A stretch of DNA of 64,000 nucleotides from Sulfitobacter sp. HGT1 (GTDB taxonomy: Bacteria > Pseudomonadota > Alphaproteobacteria > Rhodobacterales > Rhodobacteraceae). Both the position numbers and the translations under genes were made by a program. Below are positions 38,052-53,579 of this stretch, one piece after another. The notes under the pieces were generated by a model, which was given only the letters and a program-made list of their open reading frames with translations, made no database searches and had not been told where the DNA came from. Every line of letters starts with the position of its first letter. Within the stretch, counting starts at the first letter, position 1. The stretch spans positions 186,001 through 250,000 of the forward strand of contig NZ_BLWI01000008.1 of the NCBI RefSeq assembly GCF_013282155.1, read 5' to 3'.

Positions 38052-38567
38052 TCAGGTCGCGGTTCTGGGATAGTCGTGTTTATTCAAGAACGCCCAAATC
38101 TCGCGGTTCAGATCCCCCAGATCGTCGATTGCCTTGTAAATGCCGTCTCGCGTGCCTTGGTCCAACTGCTCAACCTGCCCCATCTTGATCGCGTCTTTCC
38201 GATCTGCGATCCGCATCAGGATCGTATGCGTGGCCGCCGATTGTGAATCGAACGCATAGATACAATGGTTGTAGCGGTTGCGGATGTGGCCGATTTTTTG
38301 CATGCGCGTGGTCAAGGCAATAACCTGTTTGCGCTCCTCGCTTTGGACACGGCCCAGCTTTGACAGGCGTTGCACCAGATCAATCCGCGCCCGTGATGTA
38401 TTCAGGGTCATGAAAATAACCGTCGCCGTTTCCAGATCGACCTTTGCCAATCCGGCGATGAAATGGATCAACAGGCTTTCGGTGTTTGTCCAGGCATAGT
38501 TGAGCCGCCCCACCAGCAATAGGAACTTGTCAAAACTTGTCAGGTCCGGCTCTTGCGATCTTGCCAT
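38052..38567 (-). CDS. Hypothetical helical protein in operon with a LuxR-type regulator
   Basis: A 171-residue soluble, mostly helical protein. Notable segments are LNYAWTNTESLLIHFIAGLAK, FMTLNTSRARIDLVQRL and IGHIRNRYNHCIYAFD; the R-x4-H-like arrangement in the last recalls HEPN-type proteins, but the match is weak. It starts eight bases after the LuxR-type regulator gene and is surely co-transcribed. No known function was recognised. It may modulate the regulator or act as a separate ribonuclease-like domain. Confidence 0.55.
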   Translation of the reverse strand: MARSQEPDLTSFDKFLLLVGRLNYAWTNTESLLIHFIAGLAKVDLETATVIFMTLNTSRARIDLVQRLSKLGRVQSEERKQVIALTTRMQKIGHIRNRYNHCIYAFDSQSAATHTILMRIADRKDAIKMGQVEQLDQGTRDGIYKAIDDLGDLNREIWAFLNKHDYPRTAT

Positions 38568-38575
38568 CTGCTTGC

Positions 38576-39295
38576 CTATTCAACCCTGAAATTTCCGGTT
38601 GCGGCAACATAGGCAATCGCGGCCTCTGTTCTGTTTGTGACACCCATTTTGCCGATGATATGGTGGATGTGCAGCTTGACCGTGCTTTCCGACAGTTGCA
38701 GATGATGGGCGATGACCTTGTTTGGCTCGCCTTTTGACAAATAGCCCAAGACATCTTTTTCGCGGGCCGTCAGCGATCTGATCTGGTCCCACATATTGGC
38801 CTTGATTTCGAGTCCGGCAGGGAAGCTTCCCGACAAGAGATAGTCCATGACTTCCCCGCAAATGTGCCGTTCGCCCGAAACCAGCAAACGGAAGATATTT
38901 ATCGCTGAATCAATACGCGTGCGAAGCGGCAGAAAACTCAATTTCGCCATCAACGCCGTATCTCCAATCGCGTCGATAAAATTCTTGATGTCTTTTATAT
39001 CATGAAACGCCAAAGCCAGGTCGAAATTGGGGAACTGTTTTGACAATTCAAAAAGAGTTTCCATCTCTGCCTCCACAGACCGAGGCGAGAAAATTAACGT
39101 CACTCTGCAATAGGGGCTTGTATTCAATCGGTCTTTCACCGCTGCAAAAGTAGGTACAATTGAGACGTCCAAATTATCGAACTCGCTCATAATAAGGCGT
39201 AGGTAGACGTCAGGAAATGATGTCCGACCGCCGACAAACAAAATGGCCTGACGTTCTGTGCTGTTATATCTCACTTGGTTAATAGCTTTAGGCAT
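38576..39295 (-). CDS. LuxR/FixJ-type transcriptional regulator with degenerate receiver
   Basis: A 239-residue regulator. The C-terminal ~65 residues are a clear LuxR helix-turn-helix (LTAREKDVLGYLSKGEPNKVIAHHLQLSESTVKLHIHHI). The N-terminal domain has receiver-like alternation (AILFVGGRTSFPDVYLRLIM, LDVSIVPTF, RVTLIFSP) but no aligned acidic pocket, so it is probably not phosphorylated like a standard response regulator. The start is taken at the ATG at 39295; an in-frame codon lies 48 bases upstream. It is divergent from the type I secretion cargo operon across a 485-base AT-rich gap and may control it. Confidence 0.82.
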   Translation of the reverse strand: MPKAINQVRYNSTERQAILFVGGRTSFPDVYLRLIMSEFDNLDVSIVPTFAAVKDRLNTSPYCRVTLIFSPRSVEAEMETLFELSKQFPNFDLALAFHDIKDIKNFIDAIGDTALMAKLSFLPLRTRIDSAINIFRLLVSGERHICGEVMDYLLSGSFPAGLEIKANMWDQIRSLTAREKDVLGYLSKGEPNKVIAHHLQLSESTVKLHIHHIIGKMGVTNRTEAAIAYVAATGNFRVE

Positions 39296-39780
39296 TGAAT
39301 TTGTTCCAAATATTGGAGCGACCAGACCAAATATCACTACCAAAAAATTTTGGCGGGTAATTGATAAATCTCAATGGGGACTGACTTATCAAGGCAGGGC
39401 CTGGCAGGTTTTCGCCAAGGTTGTGGTGGAAAATTTCACCCCTGGCGGAGCCCCTTCCTGACCAGAACCTAACACATCGGTTAAAAATACTTCCGGGAAA
39501 CCAGAAAAACAGATTTCTACAAGAAAGTCAGAACCTTAATATAAGAATCGGGAAAAATATTCCGCATTTTATGCCTTCGATCTAAATCAAAGGGCCTATC
39601 TTTTTGGCGTAGATACTAACATTCACCCCATCCCATTGATTAGAATCTACAGTCTGAATTGCTAGATATCGCACCACTTCTATTCACGCCAATCTGATCT
39701 GGTCGCAATGATGTGACGTTCAACAAGAATCGGCATTCGAATAGAAATTCCACCTTTTAGATGAGCGGTGGATCTGGCGG
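39296..39780. other. AT-rich 485-base intergenic region between the LuxR gene and the cargo operon
   Basis: No convincing ORF was seen. The stretch is clearly richer in A and T than the flanking genes and must hold both divergent promoters. A site at 39577-39590 (TCGAT-CTAA-ATCAA) has one mismatch to the FNR consensus. No strong hairpin was found. Confidence 0.5.
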
Positions 39781-40743
39781 ATGCCCCCAAAGAAAGCATT
39801 TATCATGTCAAATGGTAGACACGGACACCACCACGGTGGCAACAACTACGTACCAATGGGCAACCAAAGCCAGGAACAAGATCAGGCGCAGGCCGAAGCA
39901 CAGCTTCAGGCGCAATTGCAGGGTCAGGGCCAGCTTCAGGGTCAGGGCCAATCGCAAACCAGCGAAAGCGAGAACCTGAACGGCAACGGTAACCTGAATG
40001 GTAACGGTAACCTGAACGGCAACGGTAACCTGAACGGTAACCTGAACCTGAACGGAAACGAAAACAACGCCTCCAACACCGCCACAAACGAGGCCACCAA
40101 CACGTCGACCACGACTGTGACAGTCGATGTCGGGGTCACCGGTGCCTTCGATATGACGGACTATGTGCCATCGGACGATGACTTTGCAGACATCGACCTG
40201 AGCGGCGGTGCGTCTGTCGACAATATCCTGATGGCCAAGGGCGATGTGAACTTCGACCCCGGTAACGAGATGAACCTCGATGACATCCTGACCGACGCGC
40301 TGACCGGTGCCGGAAATGATGTTGGCCTTGTGAATGCACAGTCGAACAACCTGATCGACAGTGATGTTCTTCACAATGCAACCGTGGGCGGGTCGCTGAC
40401 CAACAACGGCAGCGCGCATGGTGGCACCGCATCCTCAGGTGACGGCATCGGCACTGGCGCTGCTGCTGCAGAACCCGACTTTGGTGGCCACCCTTGGAAA
40501 AATGGTCCTCACGACGATGACGCCGATGGTGCTGTTGCCGGTACATGGGGCAGCGGAAACGGTGATGACGGTTATGTCGCCGGTGAATCCCTGTCTTCGG
40601 CATCTGCAACCGTTGATACCACAGCGTTCAACCAGAGCATTGTGATGGGTGCCAACATCCTCGGCAACACAGTCGATATGTCCGTGGTCGGTGGCAACAT
40701 GAACTCCACCTACATCGGTGACGACAGCTCAGACGGCGCATAA
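39781..40743 (+). CDS. Q-rich, LNGNGN-repeat protein, probable type I secretion cargo
   Basis: A 320-residue acidic protein with no N-terminal signal peptide. Residues 15-22 are His/Gly-rich (GHHHGGNN). Residues 29-60 are Gln-rich (QAEAQLQAQLQGQGQ). Residues 66-93 are a tandem LNGNGN array. A Thr/Asn-rich stretch follows, then an Asp-rich globular part. Segments such as LVNAQSNNLIDSDVLHN and VDMSVVGGNMNSTYIGDD resemble repeats of the next protein. No RTX nonapeptides occur. An alternative start is the ATG at 39805. Together with the ABC exporter and HlyD downstream it looks like an exported surface or matrix protein; amyloid character is inference. Confidence 0.7.
   Translation: MPPKKAFIMSNGRHGHHHGGNNYVPMGNQSQEQDQAQAEAQLQAQLQGQGQLQGQGQSQTSESENLNGNGNLNGNGNLNGNGNLNGNLNLNGNENNASNTATNEATNTSTTTVTVDVGVTGAFDMTDYVPSDDDFADIDLSGGASVDNILMAKGDVNFDPGNEMNLDDILTDALTGAGNDVGLVNAQSNNLIDSDVLHNATVGGSLTNNGSAHGGTASSGDGIGTGAAAAEPDFGGHPWKNGPHDDDADGAVAGTWGSGNGDDGYVAGESLSSASATVDTTAFNQSIVMGANILGNTVDMSVVGGNMNSTYIGDDSSDGA
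39976..40056 (+). repeat. Tandem 18-base repeat encoding LNGNGN
   Basis: Copies of the unit CTGAACGGCAACGGTAAC run from 39976, with small third-position changes and one shortened 12-base copy near the end. They encode residues 66-93 of the cargo protein. Direct repeats of this kind can change copy number by slippage. Confidence 0.85.
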
Positions 40744-40756
40744 ACCGTTTGACCGT

Positions 40757-40798
40757 GACCGGCCCTACCGGTCGCCAATAACAACACCTCGCGCGAGA
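40757..40798 (+). repeat. Intercistronic hairpins between the two cargo genes
   Basis: A hairpin GACCGG/CCGGTC (40757-40762 and 40768-40773, loop 5) is followed by the palindrome CTCGCGCGAG (40789-40798) and by a further copy of CTCGCGCG. They lie in the 125-base gap after the first cargo gene. No T-run follows, so they may stabilise or attenuate the message and set a higher level of the first cargo. Confidence 0.45.
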
Positions 40799-40868
40799 AC
40801 AACTCGCGCGGGGCGCATAAAATTCCGAGGCACCACCGAGCAGATAATAATAATAACTGGTGGTCAAA

Positions 40869-42854
40869 ATGCTTATCGATAGAACATCCGAAATCGTTGC
40901 CCATTTTATTGGTGCATTTGAAACGGCCTTGGACGGTTCGAGGTTTAGAAGCGAAATTGATGGTTTTCGTCATCGCCAAACTCAAGACCCCTCCTTTGAC
41001 GATCAATCCTCACAGACGGTAGCTGCGCGCGCTCCATATGCGCTGGATGGATATGCAGCGGGTCTGTCGCCCTTATGGCTCACACCCGATGCCCCCGCAC
41101 CCCTTGCGGTGTCAGGTCACCATCCCCTTCAATTGCCCTTCCTCAAGGCAAAGGCGGAACTGGTCGTCGACGATGCCCAGGACTTCCCGTTTTTTGAACC
41201 GGCCAAGCAGAGTGCTGGCGGTTTCACGGTGTCATCCCCGATGCCCGGCTCGGTTGCATTCGTCTCTCAGCAAACCAACTATCTGATCGATCACGACTTT
41301 TTCGGCGATATCGACGCAGGAAGCTTCATTGCCCCCGACATACTGGACCAGCAGCTTGAGACCCTGTGGCAAGCGGCCCAGCCGATGATGCCGGGCACAA
41401 GTGGCAACCCGCTTACCCTGATCCTTGAGGGGTCAACGATGGGTGAAACATTCGCTGAGAACTACTTGGAAAGTGCCTCGGCCGCAGAAGCAATGGGCGG
41501 ACAGGTGTCATTTCTGTCGGGTCCGGCCATCGGTGAAATCACCGTCAACGGGGCCGACCAAGACGCCATGCCCGATCTCGACAATCTTCTTCCCACATAT
41601 CTGCAAGCCAAAAACGACGCGGCCCAGGCAGAGGATGCCATGGCCGCCGACAGCTTTCTCACCCCGACGGGTAATGCGGGCACTGCCGCCGCGTTTTTCG
41701 ACGTCGAAGCCGGCCACAGCGTCATTGCAGGCGGCAATATGGAGATCAACGAAACCGTGATCGTTGCCCAACATGTAGATGCGCCTGTCATTGCAGTTAT
41801 GGGCGATATGGTGGCGATTTCGGCGATTGCACAGGTCAACGTCATCCATGACTACAATTCCGGCGCGACGAACATCTCGCCGATGAATACATCCATCAAT
41901 GCCGCAATGTTCGCCTCACAGCACAGTGTAACGTCAGATGCGGCACCAACTGCTGCCTTTCCGGTGAATGTCACAGCGATTGTCACGCGCGTCGATGCGG
42001 ATCTGATTTCGGTCAACTGGATCCATCAATACAACTACATGTCCGACCATGACACGGCCCAGATCACCTTCTCGGGCGAAGACAGCTTTCTCGATTTCGG
42101 CGACAACGTGCTGTTCAATCAGGTCAGCCTTTTGGAATTTGCGCAGGGCTATGACCTGATCATTGTCGGCGGAAACATGTACGATATGTCGCTGATTTTC
42201 CAGACAAATATTCTGTTTGATGACGATGCGGTGCATGTGGCGGGGGCCGGTCCCTACTCTGCCTCCATGGGCGACAATCTTGCCTATAACATGGCCTTGA
42301 TCCAGTCGAACTCCATCGACAGCTACATCGAGATGGACAGCGTTTTCGCCCAAGCAGGGGCCGATCTGGCAGCAGGGGCGCGCGTGTTGTCGGATGACGT
42401 TCAAAACCACGAGGTGTTCGACGGCCATGCCCCTTTGAACATCCTGTATATTTCCGGCGACCTCATCAACGTCTCTGCAATCGAACAGACCAATATCATC
42501 GGCGATGCAGATCAGGTCGCGTTCGAAGTCGAAGCGCTTTTGGCCGGGTCGGATTCAATTCCAACCACCACGACCGGGTCAAACGCCGCAGTCAATATGG
42601 CGACGATCCAGAACTACGGGGCTGATTCAACGATCATGGTGGGCGGCGAGGTCTATGACGACCTACTGCTCTATCAGGCAGAACTGATCGACACAGATGC
42701 CCAGCCCCTTGGCGCGACCCCCCTCGCCTCAGAGGCGGTCGTCTTTCTTGCCGAGGATATGATCGACCCCGATCTCGGCGACACCGGAATGGTTTCGCAA
42801 TCTCCGGATATCACCAGCTCTGACGTCGACATGATGGGCTCCATCGTAACCTGA
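40869..42854 (+). CDS. Large repetitive non-RTX cargo ('type I secretion protein')
   Basis: A 661-residue acidic protein without a signal peptide. It begins MLIDRTSEIVAHFIGAFETAL, an amphipathic helix seen in proteins annotated as roseobacter type I secretion proteins. From about residue 285 on, a ~25-residue motif recurs: GD-hydrophobic-x-S-x-I-x-Q-x-N-hydrophobic (for example GDMVAISAIAQVNVI, GGNMYDMSLIFQTNIL, GDLINVSAIEQTNII). These alternate with N-x-A-x-NMA-x-IQ segments. No GGxGxD calcium repeats are present. The repeats probably form a beta-solenoid. Genes for an ABC exporter and HlyD adaptor follow directly. A GTG at 40860 is an alternative start. Confidence 0.7.
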   Translation: MLIDRTSEIVAHFIGAFETALDGSRFRSEIDGFRHRQTQDPSFDDQSSQTVAARAPYALDGYAAGLSPLWLTPDAPAPLAVSGHHPLQLPFLKAKAELVVDDAQDFPFFEPAKQSAGGFTVSSPMPGSVAFVSQQTNYLIDHDFFGDIDAGSFIAPDILDQQLETLWQAAQPMMPGTSGNPLTLILEGSTMGETFAENYLESASAAEAMGGQVSFLSGPAIGEITVNGADQDAMPDLDNLLPTYLQAKNDAAQAEDAMAADSFLTPTGNAGTAAAFFDVEAGHSVIAGGNMEINETVIVAQHVDAPVIAVMGDMVAISAIAQVNVIHDYNSGATNISPMNTSINAAMFASQHSVTSDAAPTAAFPVNVTAIVTRVDADLISVNWIHQYNYMSDHDTAQITFSGEDSFLDFGDNVLFNQVSLLEFAQGYDLIIVGGNMYDMSLIFQTNILFDDDAVHVAGAGPYSASMGDNLAYNMALIQSNSIDSYIEMDSVFAQAGADLAAGARVLSDDVQNHEVFDGHAPLNILYISGDLINVSAIEQTNIIGDADQVAFEVEALLAGSDSIPTTTTGSNAAVNMATIQNYGADSTIMVGGEVYDDLLLYQAELIDTDAQPLGATPLASEAVVFLAEDMIDPDLGDTGMVSQSPDITSSDVDMMGSIVT

Positions 42855-42880
42855 AGCATTTGAATTACCGGAGAAGCGCC

Positions 42881-44833
42881 TTGAAAGACTCTGACCACAC
42901 CAGTGAACCGTCCCCGCACGAGGCAACGAAGTCGGAACCTTTTAAATTGAAACCCGAAATGGGGGCCGAGGTAATGGACAAGCTGTCTGATGGCCCCCAT
43001 TCCGGCCCCGTCATCGACCAACCCAGCAACGCAGACCGGCAAAAGGAAGCGACCCTTGCAGCGGCGGGCGGTGGTGGCGGCAAAGGCGCGGATACGGTAC
43101 CCTTTCACAAGCGGATCGGGCCTGACGGTTTTGCCGATGCCCTGAAAAAAGGCGTGCGGGCGGTCCGGCGCAATCTCATGTTCGTCATGATCCTGACCCT
43201 TGGGACCAATATCCTGATCCTCGCGATCCCGATCTATCTTTTCCAGATTTCGGACCGGGTTTTGACAAGCAGGTCCGTTGATACGCTGGTTATGCTGACA
43301 ATCGTGATCGTTGGCGCGATTTTGGTGCAAACGATACTGGATTCCCTGCGACGGTTCATCCTGATGCGAAGCGCCGTTGAAGTGGCCGCGCGTCTGGGGG
43401 CCCCGATCCTGAGCGCCGCCGCCCATGCCTCGTTGCAGGGCAACGGCAAGGAATACCAGACCCTGTCCGACCTGCAGCAGGTGCGCGGGTTCCTTGTGTC
43501 AGGGACGCTGATCTCCTTTCTGGATGTCCCCTTTGCCCCGCTGTTTCTATCGGTGATTTTCCTTGTCCACCCGCATCTTGGCATGATCGTGGTCAGCAGT
43601 TCGTTGCTGTTGCTTGTCATCGCAATCGTGAACCAGAAAATGACCGCCAAACCCTTTGCCGAGGCGAACATGGCCCAAAGCCGCGCGAACATGCATCTCG
43701 ATTCAATGGCCCGTAACAGCCAGATTATCAACGCGATGGCCATGGTGCCCGAAGCCGTGCGCATCTGGGGCAAGGACACTGCCGGCTCTCTTACCGCGCA
43801 GGTGCGTGCCCAGGACCGCAACATCATTTTTGCCTCCATCAGCCGGGGCGCGCGGCTGTTGACGCAGATCGGCATGTTGGGTTGGGGGGCCAATCTGGCA
43901 CTGCAAGGCGAGATCACCGGCGGCATGGTGATTGCGGCCTCTATCATCGCGGGGCGCGCGCTGGCCCCCATCGAAGGGTCGATCGAGGGGTGGAATTCGT
44001 TTCTGTTGTCGCGCGCGGCGTATGGGCGGATCAACGATCTGATGCGCCGCTCGCGGGTGCGGTTCGAACGGCTGGTTCTGCCTGATCCACAGGGCCGTCT
44101 TGATGTTGAACGCCTGCTATATGTGCCCGGCGGCACCAAACAGGTCATTCTGAACGGGCTCAGCTTCCACCTTGATCCCGGCGAAACCCTTGCTGTCATT
44201 GGCAACTCTGGCGCGGGCAAAACCACCTTGGGGAAAATGCTGGTCGGCTCCATTCTGCCAACCTCGGGCAGTGTGCGTCTGGACCTGATGGATATCCGCA
44301 ACTGGGACCCGCGCCAACTGGGCGAAAGTATCGGATATGTACCGCAGGATGTGCAGCTGTTCCCCGGAACGATCAAAGACAACATCGCCCGAATGCGCGA
44401 CGACGCCACTGACGCAGACATCCACCGCGCCGCTGTGCTGGCAGACGTCAACGACATGATTGCAGCCCTGCCCCACGGCTATGAAACCATGGTCGCCGCT
44501 GACGGATCACCGCTGTCGGGCGGGCAAAAGCAGCGTGTCGCCCTGGCGCGCGCCTTCTTTGGCAAGACCCGCTTGCTGGTGCTTGACGAACCGAACTCCA
44601 ACCTTGATGCGGCAGGCGATCTGGCCCTAGCGCGGGCCATCCAGCACGCCAAAGACAACAAGATCACCGTTGTTGTCATCACCCAAAAGCCGTCGCTTTT
44701 GAAGGTTGTCGACAAGATCATGATGGTCGCGGACGGGAATGTTGCGCTGTTCGGCTATCGTGATCCGGTGTTGCAAAAACTCGCCGAACGCAGCGCAAGC
44801 GCGAACGCCACCCCACAGGAGATTTCGTCATGA
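42881..44833 (+). CDS. Type I secretion ABC transporter (PrtD/LapB-like)
   Basis: A 650-residue half-transporter with a ~95-residue Gly-rich hydrophilic N-terminal extension. A six-helix ABC membrane domain follows (MFVMILTLGTNILILAIPIYLFQ). The ATPase has Walker A GNSGAGKT, signature LSGGQKQRVALARA and Walker B LLVLDEPNSN. There is no C39 peptidase domain, so cargo is not cleaved. The likely start is TTG at 42881 with GGAG seven bases upstream; another in-frame TTG lies at 42860. It overlaps the HlyD-like gene by four bases. It should export the two upstream cargo proteins. Confidence 0.92.
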   Translation: MKDSDHTSEPSPHEATKSEPFKLKPEMGAEVMDKLSDGPHSGPVIDQPSNADRQKEATLAAAGGGGGKGADTVPFHKRIGPDGFADALKKGVRAVRRNLMFVMILTLGTNILILAIPIYLFQISDRVLTSRSVDTLVMLTIVIVGAILVQTILDSLRRFILMRSAVEVAARLGAPILSAAAHASLQGNGKEYQTLSDLQQVRGFLVSGTLISFLDVPFAPLFLSVIFLVHPHLGMIVVSSSLLLLVIAIVNQKMTAKPFAEANMAQSRANMHLDSMARNSQIINAMAMVPEAVRIWGKDTAGSLTAQVRAQDRNIIFASISRGARLLTQIGMLGWGANLALQGEITGGMVIAASIIAGRALAPIEGSIEGWNSFLLSRAAYGRINDLMRRSRVRFERLVLPDPQGRLDVERLLYVPGGTKQVILNGLSFHLDPGETLAVIGNSGAGKTTLGKMLVGSILPTSGSVRLDLMDIRNWDPRQLGESIGYVPQDVQLFPGTIKDNIARMRDDATDADIHRAAVLADVNDMIAALPHGYETMVAADGSPLSGGQKQRVALARAFFGKTRLLVLDEPNSNLDAAGDLALARAIQHAKDNKITVVVITQKPSLLKVVDKIMMVADGNVALFGYRDPVLQKLAERSASANATPQEISS

Positions 44834-46170
44834 GACATGCCCCAACCGCGATTATTGACGCCACATGGTATGACGATGTGCCCCGGTCGATCAGGGGTCA
44901 CGTGATATTCGGCACTTTCCTGATCATCTCCGCATTTGGGGGTTTCGGATATTGGGCCACCCAAGCGCCGCTTGCCGCGGCGGTTGTGTCGCAAGGCAGC
45001 TTTATCGCCACCGGACGCAACAAGATTGTCCAGCATCTGGAGGGCGGCATCATCGAACAGATCTATGTCGCCGAAGGTGATATGGTCGAAGCGGGGCAAG
45101 TTCTGGTCCGGCTCGACGAGACATCCGCGCTTGGCAAGGAACGGGAACTTTTCCTCAGGCAGGTTCGACTGGAAGTCGCTCAGGCGCGGTTCAATTCCGA
45201 ATACAAACAAGAGAACACGCTCAGGTTTCCGCCGCATCTGGAAAAACTGCGCGCCGATCTGGAAGTCGCCACAATGATGGAGAACCAGTCTTTGGGGTTC
45301 ACCGTGTCGATGCAGGGCCTGAAAAACGACATCGGCCTGCTGGAGCGCAGCATCGAGGCGCTTGGGATCAGGTCAAGCGGCTATCAAAGCCAGCTTGAAG
45401 CAACGCAGATCCAGGTCGCCATTCTGGCAGAGGAACTGGCCGATAAACAGACGTTGCTAGACCGCGGTCTTGTGCGCCGGACCGACGTAAACACCGTTCG
45501 ACGCGCCATTGCCGAAGCCGAAGGTCAGGTTGGTCGCCTCACCGCCGAGATAAACGAGATTTCCGAAGTCCGCGATCGCTATACCGCGCAGATTGAACAG
45601 ACGTTGGGGGAACACCGCGATAAGGCGCTTGATGAATTGCAGGTCGTAGAGGCGGAACTGGACGGCATTCGCGAACAGGTGCGCACGGCGCAAGAAGTGC
45701 TCAACAGGGTCGATATCACGGCCCCTGTTTCAGGCACGATCGTACGGCTGTATTACCATACGGCGGGCGGTGTGGTTGAAAGCGGCAAAGCCATCGTCGA
45801 GATTTTGCCATCGGCCGAACCCCTGATCATCGAAGCCCAAGTCCCGCGTACGAATATCGACAGTGTCAAAATCGGCTTGCACGCAACGATCCGGCTTTCT
45901 GCCCTGAACCAACGCACCACGCCGGTGCTTGAGGGCAAGGTTTTCTATGTCTCTGCGGATACGATTACCGACCAGAATTCAACCGCCCAGCAAGAGGTAT
46001 ACCTGACCCGCATTTCGATCGAACCCGAAGAATTGCTGAGAGTGCCCGGTTTTTCCCCCACCCCCGGGATGCCGGCAGAGATCATGATCCAGACCGACGA
46101 ACGGACCTTCGTGCAATATCTCATGAAACCGATCCTCGACAGCATGTCGCGCGCTTTCCGCGAAAGGTAG
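44830..46170 (+). CDS. HlyD-family type I secretion adaptor
   Basis: A 446-residue membrane fusion protein. One N-terminal helix (HVIFGTFLIISAFGGFGYWAT) anchors it. A first lipoyl half (FIATGRNKIVQHLEGGIIEQIYVAEG), a long coiled coil (about residues 95-290) and the second lipoyl half with RVDITAPVSGTIVRL follow, then a beta-barrel. The HLEGGII motif is typical of PrtE/HlyD adaptors. Its ATG overlaps the ABC gene stop (ATGA). No TolC-like outer-membrane gene is found in the window, so that component must be elsewhere. Confidence 0.93.
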   Translation: MRHAPTAIIDATWYDDVPRSIRGHVIFGTFLIISAFGGFGYWATQAPLAAAVVSQGSFIATGRNKIVQHLEGGIIEQIYVAEGDMVEAGQVLVRLDETSALGKERELFLRQVRLEVAQARFNSEYKQENTLRFPPHLEKLRADLEVATMMENQSLGFTVSMQGLKNDIGLLERSIEALGIRSSGYQSQLEATQIQVAILAEELADKQTLLDRGLVRRTDVNTVRRAIAEAEGQVGRLTAEINEISEVRDRYTAQIEQTLGEHRDKALDELQVVEAELDGIREQVRTAQEVLNRVDITAPVSGTIVRLYYHTAGGVVESGKAIVEILPSAEPLIIEAQVPRTNIDSVKIGLHATIRLSALNQRTTPVLEGKVFYVSADTITDQNSTAQQEVYLTRISIEPEELLRVPGFSPTPGMPAEIMIQTDERTFVQYLMKPILDSMSRAFRER

Positions 46171-46559: not shown

Positions 46560-47660
46560 ATGAACTGTAATATGCTTGAACCTGACCAGCTCCCTCGCAC
46601 GTTGAACGACTATTATAACCGTGCCCGTGACAGCATGAGTTCGGAAAACCGCGCATATTTCCTGTCCGGTGCCGGCGGCGAAGAAACGTTGTTGGCGAAT
46701 GAAGAGGCCTTTGTTCGCGCACGCATCACGCCACGGCCGCTGCGCGAAATGGGCGGCGGATCAACGGCGACCTCAGTGTTAGGCCAACGGCTTGCGGCAC
46801 CCCTGCTGATTGCGCCCTTTGCCTATCACCGGTTGCTGCACCCTTCGGGTGAGATCGCAACGGCCCAGGGTGCCGGGGCACAGTCGATCAAGATGATCCT
46901 CAGCGCGCAAAGCAGTGTGGAGTTGACCAATGTGCAAGCGGCTGCGCAAGGCTGCGACTGGTTCCAGCTTTACTGGATGGGCAGCCGGCAGGCCACGCTT
47001 GAGCTGGCGGAAATGGCCTTGGCGGCGGGGTTCGGCACGCTTGTCTTGACCATCGATGCACCAGTGCAAGGCGTTCGGGACCGCGAGATAGAGGCCGGTT
47101 TTCAATTGCCGCCTGACGTGAGCGCGGTGAATTTAGCGCGGTTCGCCCCGCCCCGTTTCACCGCACCAGACGAAGGGCAATCGTTTATTTTCGACCGCAT
47201 CGCGCATCATTTGCCAAATTGGGACGATGTCGCCTGGCTTGTTGAAACGGTGCAGGTGCCGGTTCTATTGAAAGGCATCCTGCACCCCGAGGATGCCGCC
47301 CGCGCGGTCTCCATCGGGGCCGCTGGCGTGATTGTATCGAACCACGGCGGGCGTGTCCTGGACAGGGCCCCTGCGACCCTCGACGTGCTGCCGGCAATCG
47401 TCGAACGGGTCGGGCCGGACTATCCTGTGCTTATGGATGGCGGCATCCGCCGCGGTGTCGATATTTTCGTCGCTCTTGCCTTGGGGGCAAAGGCCGTTTT
47501 GATCGGCCGCCCTGTGGTGTGCGGTCTTGCCGTTGCAGGTGAACTGGGCGTCAGCCATGTGTTGCGCCTGCTGCGCGACGAATTGGAGGTTGCCATGCTG
47601 CTGTGCGGATGCGCCAGCATCGACGACATCACGCCGGATATGGTTCACCTAAAGCTGTAA
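46560..47660 (+). CDS. FMN-dependent alpha-hydroxy-acid dehydrogenase/oxidase
   Basis: A 366-residue TIM-barrel flavoenzyme of the lactate/glycolate/mandelate oxidase family. Recognised parts are the N-terminal LNDYYNRARDSM, the FMN-binding stretch APLLIAPFAYHRLLHP, the substrate-side FQLYW, VLLKGILHPEDAARA with the conserved Lys, the catalytic base His in IVSNHGGR, and LMDGGIRRGVDIFVALALGA. It oxidises a 2-hydroxy acid to a 2-oxo acid; which one is unknown. The start is uncertain (46560 or 46572), with no obvious ribosome site. Its last 16 bases overlap the convergent tonB gene. Confidence 0.88.
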   Translation: MNCNMLEPDQLPRTLNDYYNRARDSMSSENRAYFLSGAGGEETLLANEEAFVRARITPRPLREMGGGSTATSVLGQRLAAPLLIAPFAYHRLLHPSGEIATAQGAGAQSIKMILSAQSSVELTNVQAAAQGCDWFQLYWMGSRQATLELAEMALAAGFGTLVLTIDAPVQGVRDREIEAGFQLPPDVSAVNLARFAPPRFTAPDEGQSFIFDRIAHHLPNWDDVAWLVETVQVPVLLKGILHPEDAARAVSIGAAGVIVSNHGGRVLDRAPATLDVLPAIVERVGPDYPVLMDGGIRRGVDIFVALALGAKAVLIGRPVVCGLAVAGELGVSHVLRLLRDELEVAMLLCGCASIDDITPDMVHLKL

Positions 47661-48490
47661 CGCAGCGGGATCATCAGGGTGAATTGATCACCAACTAGGT
47701 AATTGGGCGGTGTCGGCATCTTTTCCAACTGCTCGACCGTCCTGACCGCTGCGCCATCAAGGATCGGCGACCCCGAAGATTGCGCCACTTCCGTCGACAC
47801 CAGCACCCCATAGCGATCAAGGGTAAAACGGATCTGGACCTCCCCTTCGATGCGGGCACTGCGTGCTTTTGCCGGATAGGTCTTGGCCCCGCTGATCAAC
47901 AACACAATGCTCTTTTGCCAGTCGCGAATTGCCTCGGTCTGCTTGGCGGTCAAGCCTTCGCTCGCCGCTTCGGCACTGTCTGCCTCGGTTTCGGCCTGCA
48001 CCCCTGCGACCGACTGCTCGGAGGCTGCGCGGTCCTCGGCCCCGACCTGACTTTCCGCGTCGATCTGGTCGGGGTCATGCTCGGTGGCGATCTCTTCGGC
48101 AAGATTTTCCGTTTCGGCTTCGGGCTCCGGCGCGGCAACGCCGAATTTCAGGCTTTCATCTTCGACATCATAGGGGATTTGGCTCAGAATAGGCTGTTCG
48201 GCGGCCTGCGCTGCCTCAACCACCTCGGGGCTTTCGGTCACGGTCGGGGCCTGCTGGCTTTCCTCTTGGGCGAGGCTGTCCTCCTCCAAGGCGGACGGGG
48301 CCGCGATGATATCCGACAGATCAAACATGATCGCACCCGTGATGCCTTCGGGCTGGGTTTCATCCAGCTCGGGCTCGGGTGTCTTGCTCAGGATTTGCGC
48401 CGGAAATCCGATGTGCAAAGCGGCGCTGAATGCGATGGCACCCAGCCAGAAGACCGGCTTTGTGCTGCGCGTCGTATAGGTCAGGCTCAT
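47645..48490 (-). CDS. tonB: TonB-family energy transducer
   Basis: A 281-residue protein. One N-terminal helix (KPVFWLGAIAFSAALHIGF) is followed by a long acidic Glu/Ala-rich spacer (residues ~40-190) in place of the usual Pro-Lys spacer. The C-terminal TonB domain includes YPAKARSARIEGEVQIRFTLDRYGVL. It transmits proton-motive force from ExbBD to the outer-membrane receptor. It overlaps exbD by four bases and is last in the iron-uptake operon. The acidic spacer is a visible oddity. Confidence 0.87.
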   Translation of the reverse strand: MSLTYTTRSTKPVFWLGAIAFSAALHIGFPAQILSKTPEPELDETQPEGITGAIMFDLSDIIAAPSALEEDSLAQEESQQAPTVTESPEVVEAAQAAEQPILSQIPYDVEDESLKFGVAAPEPEAETENLAEEIATEHDPDQIDAESQVGAEDRAASEQSVAGVQAETEADSAEAASEGLTAKQTEAIRDWQKSIVLLISGAKTYPAKARSARIEGEVQIRFTLDRYGVLVSTEVAQSSGSPILDGAAVRTVEQLEKMPTPPNYLVGDQFTLMIPLRYSFR

Positions 48491-48954
48491 GGTTGATCTG
48501 CCGCTAGCGCCCCGTCCGCATCGGGGGCTTGGGCGACGTTTTCATCCAGCCCGACCAGACCGACTTTCAGAAAACCATCGGCCCGAAGGACATTCATGAC
48601 CCGGATAAATTCGCCGTAAGGCACTGATTTGTCGGCGCGAATGTAAATGCGCGTGTCACGTTTTTGCAGCGTTGCAATGCCAACGTCGATAAACAGCCTG
48701 TCATGGGTGGTGCTGGTCTCTCCGACCGACAGGGCCAGATCTTCGGTGATGGTGATAAACACCGGATCCGCCGACCGCACCGGGGCATCGGCAACCGCCA
48801 CGGGCAATTCAACCGGAATATCGACCGTGGAAAGCGGCGCTGCGATCATGAAGATAATCAGCAGAACCAGCATGACGTCGATAAAGGGTGTGACGTTGAT
48901 CTCGCTGTTTTCGCTCAGATCACCATCATCGTCAGCGCGAAGCCGGGAAGCCAT
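48487..48954 (-). CDS. exbD: ExbD-type proton channel subunit
   Basis: A 155-residue protein with one transmembrane helix containing the essential Asp: INVTPFIDVMLVLLIIFMIAA. The remaining part is a periplasmic domain typical of ExbD/TolR. Together with ExbB it forms the motor for TonB. It starts five bases after exbB ends and overlaps tonB by four bases, so the three are coupled. The neighbouring receptor favours ExbD over TolR. Confidence 0.92.
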   Translation of the reverse strand: MASRLRADDDGDLSENSEINVTPFIDVMLVLLIIFMIAAPLSTVDIPVELPVAVADAPVRSADPVFITITEDLALSVGETSTTHDRLFIDVGIATLQKRDTRIYIRADKSVPYGEFIRVMNVLRADGFLKVGLVGLDENVAQAPDADGALAADQP

Positions 48955-48959
48955 GTCGA

Positions 48960-49796
48960 TTACTCCGCCGCTGGTACTGAAACTGATGCCAGCCGGGGCT
49001 GACGCGGCTTTGCGCTTTCGTCCTTGGTGGCCAGATCAAGATCGCGCGACAGGGTGCGTTCAACAAGCGCACCGGCATCCGCCAGCATGACCTTGTAGCC
49101 CCCCATGCCACGCGCCAGAATGTTGTAAAAAATCACGGCGGGAATAGCGGCAACAAGCCCGATGGCGGTGGCCAGCAATGCCTCGGCGATACCCGGTGCG
49201 ACGATGGCCAGATTGGTCGTGTTGCTTTCTGAAATGGAGATAAAGCTGTTCATGATCCCCCAGACCGTGCCGAACAATCCGACAAACGGCGCGGTCGACC
49301 CAACGTTCGCCAAAACGCCCGCGCCAAGGCTCATGCGTCGTGCGGCTCCTGCCTCGATCCGCGAAATCTCGGAACCGACCCTTTCCTTGATGCCCGCTTT
49401 CATCGCGGCCCCCTCGCCCGAACAGGCCCGCTCGCGTTGTGCGGCGCGCACCATCTGCCCGACAACCCCCTGTTTGCGCGCAAATTTTTCTTGCGCGGCA
49501 AGCAACGTTCCTGACCGGTCCAAGTCACGGTAGCGGCGGCGCAGCACGCCACGTTCCCACCGCAGGACCATGATTTTGGCCGCAAAGATCACCCAAACCA
49601 AGGCAGAGGCGAAAAGCAGCGACAGCATGACGCCTTTCACCATCCAGTCAGCCGCCATGAACATGCCAAGGGGCGACATCTCGTTGTGGCCCGCGTTCTC
49701 AAGCATCGTTGTGAAGGTTTCAAGATCAAACGCGGCTGCCGGACCAGCGGCGGCGATCCCAATGAAAATAACGGCGGAAATCGGGGAATATTTCAT
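48960..49796 (-). CDS. exbB: ExbB-type proton channel subunit
   Basis: A 278-residue MotA/TolQ/ExbB protein. A signal-like N-terminal helix ([17 protein letters not shown]) is followed by a first channel helix ([20 protein letters not shown]), a cytoplasmic loop and two further helices with the family stretches [20 protein letters not shown] and [17 protein letters not shown]. It powers TonB. It follows the PiuC-like gene by three bases. Length fits ExbB with the longer N-terminus. Confidence 0.93.
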
Positions 49797-49799
49797 GTC

Positions 49800-50483
49800 T
49801 CAGGTCTCTGCCCATGTGCGAATAAGGTTGTGATAAATGCCGGTCAGCCGGACCGTTTCGGTGGCGTTTGATCCGATTGTTGTGCTGAGCGACTGAATGG
49901 ATTGATCCAGATCGAACAAGATCCGGCGATGCGCGTCGGACCTGATCATGCTTTGCAGCCAAAAAAACGACGAAACCCGCGCGCCACGGGTAACGGGTGT
50001 CACCTCATGCAGGCTTGTCGCCGGATACAGGATCATATCCCCGGCGGGCAGTTTCACCGTTTGCGTGCCGTAATGGTCCTCGATCACAAGCTCGCCGCCG
50101 TCATAGTCCTCGGGCGCGCTTAGAAACAGGGTCATCGACAGATCGGTGCGCAGACGTTCCTGGGTCAGCGGGTTGACCCGGATCGCGTTGTCGATGTGCG
50201 ACCCAAAGGTTTCCGCCTGCTCGTATTTGTTGAACATGGGCGGCAAAATGCGGGCCGGCAGTGCGGCAGAAATAAACAGCGGGTCTGCCGTCAGTTTTTG
50301 CAGAATGAACTTGCCCAGGGTCTGGGCGGCATCCGATGCGGCTGGCAACTGCTGGTTCCGCTTCACCTCGATGGATTGCGGGCCGGCGGTGGTTGATCCG
50401 TCTTCCCAATCGGCGGCATCCAGATGCGCGCGCACCTGATTGACCTCATCTTTGCTCAGGACGGAGGGGATCGTGATTAGCAT
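49800..50483 (-). CDS. PiuC/YbiX-type Fe(II)/2-oxoglutarate dioxygenase
   Basis: A 227-residue PKHD-type hydroxylase. The iron ligands are His and Asp in [11 protein letters not shown] and the distal His in [19 protein letters not shown], with the Arg in that segment expected to bind 2-oxoglutarate. PiuC-type genes are regularly found next to TonB-dependent siderophore receptors; the substrate is not established. The ATG at 50483 is preceded by AGAGG; an in-frame start 27 bases upstream is also possible. It lies 59 bases after the receptor gene and three bases before exbB. Confidence 0.88.
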
Positions 50484-50542
50484 GGCAGAACCTCTGGTCG
50501 GTGCGGGCAACCCGAAAGCTGCCCGCAGTGATGGTTTTCGGA

Positions 50543-53023
50543 TTAGAATTTCATTTCGTACGAGACCGAAATTTCACGGCCAGGTGCGACATAGGTGAAG
50601 GGTGTTCCCGAACGGTAGGCAGCGTCATAGACGATCGTGTCTGCGACATTGGTGATGCCCATCTTGAGCGTGGCATTATCGGCAACTTCGTATTCACCCA
50701 AAAGATCGAAGGTCCAGGCATCCGGCAGGGACCGGCCATTTGCAGCCGTGCTGCCCAGATCAATCGCGCCCTGATAGTTGACACGCCCGCCCAGCATCAG
50801 CTTGTCGGTGACCTGATACGTCGCAAGAATGTTGATCTGTTCATGGGCAACATTCGCCACCGACAGACCGACATTGCCACTGTCTGCGCTCTCCAGAATT
50901 TTGCTGTTCATGAAATTCGCACCGCCAAACAGGCTAAGCCGGTCATTCACTTTGCCAGCAACCCCCAGTTCGAGGCCGCGGATACGGTATTTCAACGTAT
51001 CAGAGGTTACAGTCGCCCCGCGCGGTCCGATATCTTCGCGGGCATTGTCCTTGGTCGTTTGATAAAGCGCCGCCGTCAGCAACAGATCAGGCGAGAAGCT
51101 GAACTTGGCCCCCAGTTCGAGCGAGGTGTTTTTTTCCGGTGCCAACCCCGAGCCGTTGGTATCAAGGCCGCCGTAAAAACCACCGCCCGCTTCCAGCTCT
51201 TGTCCGGCCGGATTGGTCGAGGTTGCCGCCGCCCCATAGACATTCAGCCGGTCGCTGAGGGCGTATGTCGTGCCAAGGTTCCAGTTGAACATGACGTCGT
51301 CGCGGGCAAGGGTATAAGCTGTCCCGCCGCTGATGCCCGACCGTTCGATATCATAGATATCCACCCGCACGCCGCTGTTTACCTTCAGCCGGTCCGACAA
51401 GGCGACCGTGTCGAGCGCATAAAGCGAGGTGGTTTTGACCGTGGTCGCTGTGACATCCGTGCCCAGTTGCGGTTGCTCGCCGCTCCAGCAGCCCTCTGCG
51501 ATGGGGTCAGGGTTAATTGCGTCGACGGTGCAGCCGTTCTGACCTGAGGGCGGCAGATAGTCTTCACTGCTCAGGTTTGAATAGCTCCGTTTTTCGATCT
51601 CTTCGCGCGATGCGGCCAGACCAAAGACAAACTTGTGATTTGCCCCGCCTAAATGCCTTTCGCCTGCCAGCTCAAGCACATTGGCGATCACATCGGTTTC
51701 CTGATTCCAGCTTTTGAAGCTCAGCCCGACCTGCCAGTCCTCCGGATTGGCGGAATCGTTGTCGATCAAACGGCTGGGTGCGGTCAGGACATAATCATTC
51801 GTGGATTTCGACAGCCGCAAGGTGTTGGTAAGCGTCAAACCGTTGCCAAAGGAATATTGCGCCTTTGCCGTACCCACCGTTTCTTCGACGGTCTGGAAAT
51901 CGCGCCCCGGAACACCATAGAATGTGGTACGGTCGACCCCGTATTCCGTCACCGGACCCACCACACCCAGATCGGCATTGTTCACAAACGGCACCCCCCA
52001 ATCGGGTGTTTGCTCGATCTTGGTGTAGCTCAGGTTCCCTTCCAGTATCAGCGCCTCGGTCGCCTTGAAACGCACCGCCATTGCAGCACCTTCGCGGTCG
52101 TCGGTCACAACATCACGCCCCGCCACGGCACCGTCTTGCAACAGCCCGTTGAACCGCAGCTGAACGCGGTCATTGATCACCTTGTTGGTGTCGATGGTTT
52201 GGCGCACGGTCGATGCGTCGGTGACGGTCGTGACGATGCGTGTGAAATCAATGTCCTGAGAGCTTTTGGAAATGATATCGAGCGCACCACCTGTGGTCCC
52301 CCGCCCACCGACAGTCCCCGCCGGCCCTTTGGTGACTTCGACCTGTTCGGTGTTGAATGTCTCGGCGACGCCGGTGCCCGGGCTACGAACGCCATCGGTA
52401 TAGACGTCGTTATTGGCCTTGAACCCGCGGATATAAATGTTGTCCCCGAAAGAATTGCCGCCTTCGCCGAACCCAAGCGATATCCCCGGCGTCGAACGGG
52501 CGATCTCTCGGACGCTGGTCGTACCGGTGGTTTCCAGAACGTCCTGGGTGATGGCCGTCACAGTCCGAGGGGTGTCTTTCAGCGGGCCGGGCATCCGGCT
52601 GTTTGCAAGGCTATTGGCTTTGAACGGGGAATTCGGATCTGCATAGCTACTTCCACCCGCCGCCGCTTTTGCCGCGGCAAGGGCTGTGGCTGCTGCCAGT
52701 TCCTGTGCTTCGCGCTCTGCCGCTTCTTGCGGGGCGCATACCGCCGTTCCGGCCAATACTGGCGTGCAGACCGCAGGTGCCGCCACGCGCGGTTTCGCAG
52801 CGCGGCGCGGTGCAGGCTTGGATTTTGCAGGTTTGCGTACCGGGCGCGCTTCTTCGGTGGTTTCCACCTCGACCGTGGGCAGAATGATCAGATCGGTGTC
52901 CTGCGCGGACGCACCTGTCGTCATACAGGCCATTGCCAAGGAAGCCCCAAAGCCCCCGACAATAAGGGCAGAGTTTCTTTGGGGTTTGCCCGAGCAAACG
53001 CTATTTTCAGGAATTCGACGCAT
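50543..53023 (-). CDS. TonB-dependent siderophore receptor (Fiu/FiuA-like)
   Basis: An 826-residue outer-membrane receptor with a signal peptide ending near GASA-QDTD at residue 40. A TonB-box-like LIILPTVEV follows at 45-53. An unusual ~90-residue Lys/Arg/Pro then Ala-rich linker precedes the plug domain, which begins near [16 protein letters not shown]. The 22-strand barrel ends with the aromatic C-terminus SYEMKF. The plug motif [15 protein letters not shown] is typical of catecholate receptors. The ATG at 53023 has GAGGGA upstream. PiuC, ExbB, ExbD and TonB follow on the same strand, so this is a self-contained iron-uptake unit. Confidence 0.9.
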
Positions 53024-53579
53024 TGGTCCCTCGCTATGAATGTTCAACTTTTACGCTGGCTGCTCATAGAGAGGTTCGCTTGCTTTAGGCGGGAACGCTT
53101 AATCCGACTGTTTTAGTAAGTAAAGGCTTTTTCTTTGATTTTTTGATGGTTTACGGGCACTCACCCCGCCCAGACCGCAGAATGCAGATCAAAGGTTGGA
53201 GATTCCAGTGGAAGCTTGGTACCCGATAAAGTTCTCGGCCGATGTCCAGCGTGCCTATCCCCTGCACCTGATGCAAAGCTTCATGCCACCTGTCAGATTG
53301 GCATCGGCCTGATTGCTTTTATCGGCCATGGGATTTGGGATTTAGGATCAGATGCTATACCCCGACGTGTTAAGCAACACGCCATCACGGCCCGATTCAA
53401 TGCCAGCCGTCCCTGCTCTGGCACGATCCAAACTTGCCCAAGCCGCGCAGGCCCCCGTTCTGCCCTTCGCAAAAGCTGCCCTGCGGGGGCTCTCTTGGAT
53501 GCGCCACAGAAAAAGGGGTGCCACAAAGACACCCCAAGGTTCACATGACCATGCTCATTAGTTTACCGCTCGTTTTGTC
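53024..53579. other. Intergenic region between the receptor gene and the nrdJ-associated ORF
   Basis: No supported gene was found in about 550 bases. The part next to the receptor (53100-53150) is AT-rich and should hold its promoter; an imperfect dyad TTTACTTACTAAA on the minus strand is the only iron-box-like hint. A terminator lies at 53510-53535. Confidence 0.45.
53510..53535 (-). terminator. Intrinsic terminator of the nrdJ transcript
   Basis: On the minus strand the stem GGGGTG/CACCCC with a 9-base loop is followed directly by TTTTT. It lies 45 bases beyond the stop of the small ORF after nrdJ, so it would end a transcript covering both. Confidence 0.65.

Follow-up and report, generated by a model that had tools for sequence, protein, structure and literature searches.

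Two paired acidic proteins encoded with a PrtD-type exporter in Sulfitobacter and related bacteria: a candidate two-subunit surface or matrix assembly

A 64,000-nucleotide stretch of the genome of Sulfitobacter sp. HGT1 (hereafter the window) carries a two-component type I secretion module for which we found no description in the open-licence literature, preprints not being covered by this search and descriptions possibly existing elsewhere. Six genes make up the module (Table 1): two encode acidic proteins that we call A and B, two encode a type I exporter pair, and two, transcribed divergently from A, encode a LuxR-type regulator and a conserved 171-aa protein. The pairing and order of these genes are conserved, A and B have repeat motifs in common, B is modelled as a beta-rich protein, a hairpin lies between the two genes, the codon usage of A is biased, and both proteins are acidic and apparently without an N-terminal signal. 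We consider the chances evenly balanced that A and B are exported by the type I system encoded beside them and jointly build a surface or biofilm-matrix assembly, in which A would be abundant and B scarcer.

Table 1. Features of the A/B module, in positions of the window.
Feature	Position	Strand	Description
171-aa conserved protein	38052..38567	-	no known family; adjoins LuxR gene
LuxR-type regulator	38576..39343	-	divergent from A
Protein A	39805..40743	+	312 aa; acidic, Cys-free, low-complexity, probably exported
Q tract of A	39865..39957	+	15 Q per 31 residues
N tract of A with 18-base LNGNGN array	39970..40068	+	33 residues, of which 17 N, 8 G and 6 L
Head of A	40162..40389	+	DDDFAD ... 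GAGND ... QSNNLxDxD; match to half of a B repeat unit
C-terminal tail of A	40540..40740	+	AFNQSIVMGANxLGNTVDMxVVGG; best-conserved part; resembles B unit 4
Hairpin between A and B	40787..40813	+	11-bp stem
Protein B	40869..42854	+	661 aa; five to six repeat units; encoded with A as its partner; no Pfam or NCBIfam match over cut-off
Repeat-unit span of B	41217..42704	+	residues 117-148, 280-334, 338-398, 403-457, 464-556, 563-612
Extreme C-terminus of B	42828..42851	+	Asp and hydrophobic residues; candidate export signal
PrtD-type type I secretion permease/ATPase	42860..44833	+	TIGR01842, 686 bits (cut-off 510)
HlyD-type periplasmic adaptor	44830..46170	+	TIGR01843, 380 bits (cut-off 209)

Protein A is found in 26 of the 295 genomes of the family, and B in the identical 26. 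Across 81 mutually related loci, whose counts are not independent events and which comprise the window and 80 loci selected by B (the genome scan retained 80 of 104 relatives), B is present in 81, A in 78, the adjoining ABC and HlyD genes in 79 each, the LuxR gene in 75 and its 171-aa neighbour in 74; all missing neighbours, including those of the exporter pair, are missing at contig ends. In two loci (L099 and L139), the regulator pair is located behind HlyD. A and B are likewise adjacent or fused in 30 further-listed loci, taken from 25 of the 26 genomes and five plasmid records, at least 11 of which coincide with contigs of the 81-locus set. In this second set, the exporter of L089 is cut off by the end of the contig, and two Rhizobiaceae loci (L064 and L065) have no LuxR match above threshold. 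A plasmid of Rhodobacter sp. CZR27 (L063 6544-11097) carries A and B fused in one gene of 1,517 aa, and in Loktanella sp. 5RATIMAR09 (L158 7001-9057) the B frame is split into two ORFs of 552 and 122 aa. Three loci in which B is cut or split were excluded from later analyses (78 of 81 retained); the B alignment holds 75 of the 78 proteins and the A alignment 53 of 78 rows.

At wider taxonomic scales, with the window genome counted each time, a set of 292 genomes from the order gave 49 with the A tail, a set of 398 from the phylum gave 7, none of them outside the class, and B occurred in 2 of 385 genomes of the class. B is also encoded on 29 plasmid records. The tail is missing from all 14 other same-genus genomes listed, and the module is thus accessory.

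Beyond the six core genes, no gene cluster recurs in more than 12 of the 81 loci in the flanks covered; the counts are 12 for an outer-membrane-factor gene, 10 for an epimerase and 9 for a glycosyltransferase. The exporter pair of the module is also carried by Paracoccus denitrificans DSM 413 (L130 9022-12328). The available part of an earlier study lists a single type I system by TXSScan for P. denitrificans (PMC5588039); scans of this type may miss modules that have no outer-membrane gene next to them, the module being known here from DSM 413.

Over the cut-offs, the six conserved genes of the window belong to the ABC, HlyD or GerE families or to no family. Besides the exporter of the module, one other PrtD-type exporter of the genome passes the curated cut-off (contig C13 97970-99601, L184). 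GerE is the domain found over cut-off in the LuxR proteins; for the 11 proteins covered, no receiver domain is listed. The 171-aa protein matches no Pfam family over cut-off and has a highest Kyte–Doolittle mean of 1.35; 18 sequences display a motif composed of a basic residue, N, x, Y, N/S and H, with Y and H invariant, which we take to resemble the HEPN Rx4-6H motif, although its first residue varies. Elsewhere in the window, genes for TonB (PF03544), MotA/TolQ/ExbB (PF01618) and a TonB-dependent receptor (PF00593) lie close together on the minus strand (47645-53047), probably as an uptake set unrelated to the A/B module.

No Pfam or NCBIfam family explains window A, for which all weak rows fall below cut-off. 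At E 0.1, Pfam returned two weak families for 20 A members and none for 27 B proteins. RTX families (GGxGxDxUx nonapeptide repeats) were absent from the same 20 A and 27 B proteins at this threshold, in line with the earlier note, which had described A as free of RTX repeats, and an RTX protein was rejected on this ground. An NCBIfam match to EbpS in one of the 20 A members (E 0.00022) and three weaker rows are taken as a composition effect. Searches of PDB sequences stayed at chance level, with three epsilon-toxin chains for B alone (best E 0.14), a best E of 0.14 for the B profile and one row at E 0.27 for the A profile. None of 47 rows from a viral fold library reached E 0.001. A fold family of B missing from the searched libraries could still exist. 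The B protein of Sulfitobacter faviae (L061 9001-11109) is annotated as 'type I secretion protein ATPase'; we rejected this label, as no Pfam family was found at E 0.1 in the 27 B proteins, that of S. faviae included. The name 'calymmin' was also dropped, the papers listed under it concerning zebrafish.

The open reading frame of A extends over 39781-40743 (320 aa) and contains a further ATG at 39781; ATG 39805 is probably the true start, because its Met forms an invariant column in the alignment of 53 A sequences. Its 312 residues contain no Cys and three K+R, as against 51 G, 42 N, 31 D and 17 Q. Several features that the earlier note had read from the sequence are borne out, namely the His/Gly-rich N-terminus (GRHGHHHGG), the Gln-rich stretch, the Asn-Gly-Leu tandem array and the apparent lack of a signal peptide, the best 19-residue Kyte–Doolittle mean being -1.2 for starts within the first 22 residues. 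In a tandem-repeat search (TRF), the two top-scoring of 10 rows in the 64 kb both stem from the 18-base array (39973-40060; 4.9 copies, score 127; score 143 at period 36). The Asp-rich parts called globular in the earlier note are not predicted to fold alone: AlphaFold modelled A with low confidence (pLDDT 51.6, pTM 0.23).

In the alignment, A proteins follow a common order of N-terminal Q tract, N tract, head, usually a glycine-rich stretch, and a tail of ~65 residues. The head motif reads DDDFAD ... GAGND ... QSNxLxDxD across the relatives, and head and tail are separated by a median of 308 residues, as measured in the 53 of 81 A rows in which all markers are present. Among 11 sequence pairs, which were chosen by us, the tail has the lowest dN of all parts in nine; as most pairs show a low dS for the tail as well, its conservation partly reflects a low overall rate. 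The head and the 65-residue tail are the best-conserved parts of A, the tail foremost.

The tracts between the N-terminus and the head behave differently. At a composition threshold of 35%, the Q tract is present in 68 and the N tract in 66 of 81 A rows; two of the Q-less rows (L095 and L125) start at a contig end, and one of these is also N-less. In a comparison of close relatives (three Paracoccus from two named species and seven Ensifer, none being of the window's own species), all length changes occurred in the Q tract, one dipeptide at a time; the N array, whose 18-base repeat could vary between strains according to the earlier note, showed none. The window protein and those of two Yoonia MAGs represent a short form (320-324 aa) that lacks the long glycine tract of most A relatives, and lengths range from 237 to 1632 aa for A and from about 640 to 1250 aa for B where complete. 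Two Roseibium loci (L165 and L169) each contain two tandem short A genes (237-251 aa), and the four encoded proteins have no Q tract and at most a short N tract. Conversely, two distant members from other families of the class (L192 and L193) keep the Q/N tracts while their head and tail have diverged. On this comparison, the Q/N tract is a spacer that is common yet variable; given its frequency and its retention in the two distant proteins, it may matter. The earlier note had based a possible self-assembly of A on the N/Q-rich design. The tracts do exist, but they are variable, and Q is absent from the four Roseibium proteins; a lone amyloid with the Q/N tract as its core was rejected, as the tract is sometimes absent.

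Protein B, for which an in-frame GTG at 40860 offers an alternative start, is modelled in isolation with higher confidence, 350 of 661 residues reaching a pLDDT of at least 90. Strands dominate residues 283-608 of the model, and residues 148-275 are largely helical; B is thus predicted, as a monomer, to be a folded beta-rich repeat protein. Its internal repeats are evident when unit 2 is compared with unit 4 (E 4e-15; z 49 relative to column shuffles).

Neither A nor B of the window has a strongly hydrophobic N-terminus by Kyte–Doolittle analysis, and both families are very acidic (median pI 3.1 for A and 3.5 for B). Cys is absent from 75 of 81 A proteins and from 48 of 78 B proteins, the other 30 B proteins containing it. 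A C-terminus of Asp and hydrophobic residues serves as an export signal for PrtD-type systems. Such an end, most commonly DVMQTMLA, is found in 72 of 78 B proteins by a pattern derived from the very 78 sequences that it scored; unlike B, A does not have it. The module resembles PrtD/PrtE-type systems and their substrates in its dedicated PrtD-type ABC and HlyD genes, in the apparent lack of an N-terminal signal, in the acidity of both proteins and the mostly Cys-free A, and in the C-terminus of B. It differs from them in that no RTX repeats were found in A or B, in that two linked substrates have repeat motifs in common, and in that the core set contains no outer-membrane gene, one lying nearby in 12 of the 81 loci. 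A had been described as encoded in front of a type I exporter; it does belong to the same gene set, but the gene directly preceding the exporter is B, on which the earlier note is silent.

Profile comparisons with hhalign connect A to the repeats of B. With unit boundaries set by eye on conserved columns, the A head matched segment B1 (probability 94.7, z 15.2 over shuffles) and the A tail matched B4 (probability 85, z 7.8), the control consisting of 45 pairs with 20 column shuffles each. Of the 14 pairings of an A part with a repeat segment of B, no others were strong: beyond B1, the head reached a probability of 46 with B4 and at most 14 with the other five segments, and the tail at most 10 with every segment except B4. 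Compared as whole profiles, A and B gave a probability of only 12.7 (E 0.0023). At the level of profiles, head and tail of A each have one clear match among the B repeat units and only weak ones to the rest.

The arrangement of the operon suggests that the two proteins are made in different amounts. Downstream of the A stop codon, a stem of at least 9 bp was found in 71 of 78 loci, compared with 26 of 390 mononucleotide shuffles; the hairpins start a median of 16 nt past the stop, and their sequence varies between loci. Only 26 of the 71 have at least four T within the ten bases behind the hairpin, the T-rich stretch being missing in the other 45. The folding z-score of the A-B intergenic region lies below -2 in 64 of 78 loci, versus 5 of 72 for the control stretch, the controls being dinucleotide shuffles and the middle of the LuxR-A gap. 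Codon usage was assessed in this one genome, with 31 window genes as background and 18 ribosomal genes as reference. The bias towards ribosomal genes is marked for A (z +4.6; one of 31 background genes is higher), with values of -1.6 for B, +0.7 for the ABC gene and -1.8 for HlyD. From the ribosomal-like codon bias of A and the hairpin behind it, we infer an excess of A over B and the exporter; as signals in the DNA, they suggest that A is abundant and that B and the exporter are scarcer. The LuxR gene has a z of -5.8 (one of 31 background genes is lower), an atypical codon usage that may reflect transfer of the module.

For two acidic substrates without an N-terminal signal, encoded with their own exporter, endowed with common repeat motifs and apparently made as an abundant and a scarce component, the simplest reading is a two-subunit assembly. 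Both proteins would leave the cell through the dedicated type I exporter. A would be the abundant subunit, an acidic and largely disordered chain in which the tracts rich in Q/N, and in most relatives also those rich in glycine, would act as spacers of adjustable length between head and tail. B would be the scarcer subunit, with an N-terminal helix, folded beta-rich repeats and a signal at its C-terminus. Its complete repeats would receive the partial repeats of A, that is, head and tail, and B would probably anchor, cap or seed A through repeat-to-repeat stacking. In curli, CsgB acts towards CsgA roughly as proposed here for B towards A. The hairpin behind A would keep the A mRNA above that of B and the exporter, and the LuxR regulator would turn the operon on or off. 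We retain as inferences that the neighbouring type I system exports A, as the earlier note had proposed, and that A has a structural role at the surface or in the matrix. A type I-exported fibre or coat of a new kind is conceivable, though we regard it as rather unlikely: mostly disordered A chains, with two parts of a beta-repeat unit flanking a length-adjustable spacer rich in Q/N and glycine, would join head-to-tail, each supplying what the repeat of the other lacks, on a template of complete repeats from B.

Alternatively, A and B could act as a non-polymeric adhesin or matrix, in which hydrated chains bind polysaccharides or ions in a BapA-like role without ordered assembly. The very acidic, low-complexity chains of both proteins would suit this function, as would the polysaccharide genes that flank the locus in S. 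faviae and the epimerase and glycosyltransferase clusters in the 81-locus set. There is also a precedent in BapA of Paracoccus denitrificans, a type I-linked protein of 2,211 residues, largely composed of Asp-Ala repeats (891 in number), that has its own bapBCD exporter and is required for biofilm formation, according to the available part of its description (PMC5588039). A and B share with BapA the link to a type I exporter, the acidity, the simple repeats and the occurrence in Rhodobacterales. However, Asp-Ala dipeptide repeats do not occur in the A or B sequences, and no B partner is described in the accessible portion of the BapA report (PMC5588039); A and B differ from BapA in sequence, and identity with it was rejected for this difference in sequence type. 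A non-polymeric matrix alone would leave the constant pairing, the common repeat motifs and the conservation of the A tail unexplained, and we consider it unlikely.

Another alternative is a functional amyloid, in which type I-exported A would form cross-beta fibres with head and tail as the core and B as nucleator. The module has several parallels to curli (CsgA/CsgB) and Fap (FapC/FapB): a possible logic of major and minor subunits, repeat motifs in both of them, and a LuxR-type regulator divergent from the operon, whose counterpart in curli is CsgD. The A/B module differs in its type I exporter and in having no curlin repeat, none being found in Pfam for 20 A and 27 B proteins at E 0.1. In addition, the CsgG/CsgE/CsgF apparatus is absent from the A/B gene set, as judged from the six window genes and the flanks of the 81 loci. 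FapC and CsgA did rank at the top of a fold search with B, but no match was significant (none at E <=0.001, TM ~0.05, probability <=0.01). The 27 B proteins gave one NCBIfam match to the FapA chaperone (E 0.0038) and one to the LapA retention module (E 0.003), both taken as chance, and the model of B is that of a folded monomer. We regard an amyloid as somewhat improbable.

A two-protein contact-dependent toxin resembling Cdz of Caulobacter, which shares one type I exporter for two substrates with the module, and whose substrates aggregate at the surface and are, in the part of the source available, glycine-zipper proteins of 84-86 aa with an immunity gene (PMC5380434), would fit the glycine-rich tracts of most A relatives, but it is highly improbable and was rejected: the substrates have the wrong sizes and sequence type, window A has no glycine tract, and among recurrent neighbours of at least 80 aa we recognised no immunity gene and, the exporter aside, no membrane-protein gene.

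If the two-subunit reading holds, the module would add a surface or matrix assembly of two subunits to those served by type I exporters, in a group of hosts that includes the laboratory species Paracoccus denitrificans. Although the A and B proteins scanned (20 and 27) gave no match to a curated Pfam or NCBIfam model that we take as real, the A tail occurs in 49 of the 292 genomes of the order and B on 29 plasmid records. The conserved tail of A, the A-B fusion and the hairpin offer easy handles by which the proposed assembly could be tested.
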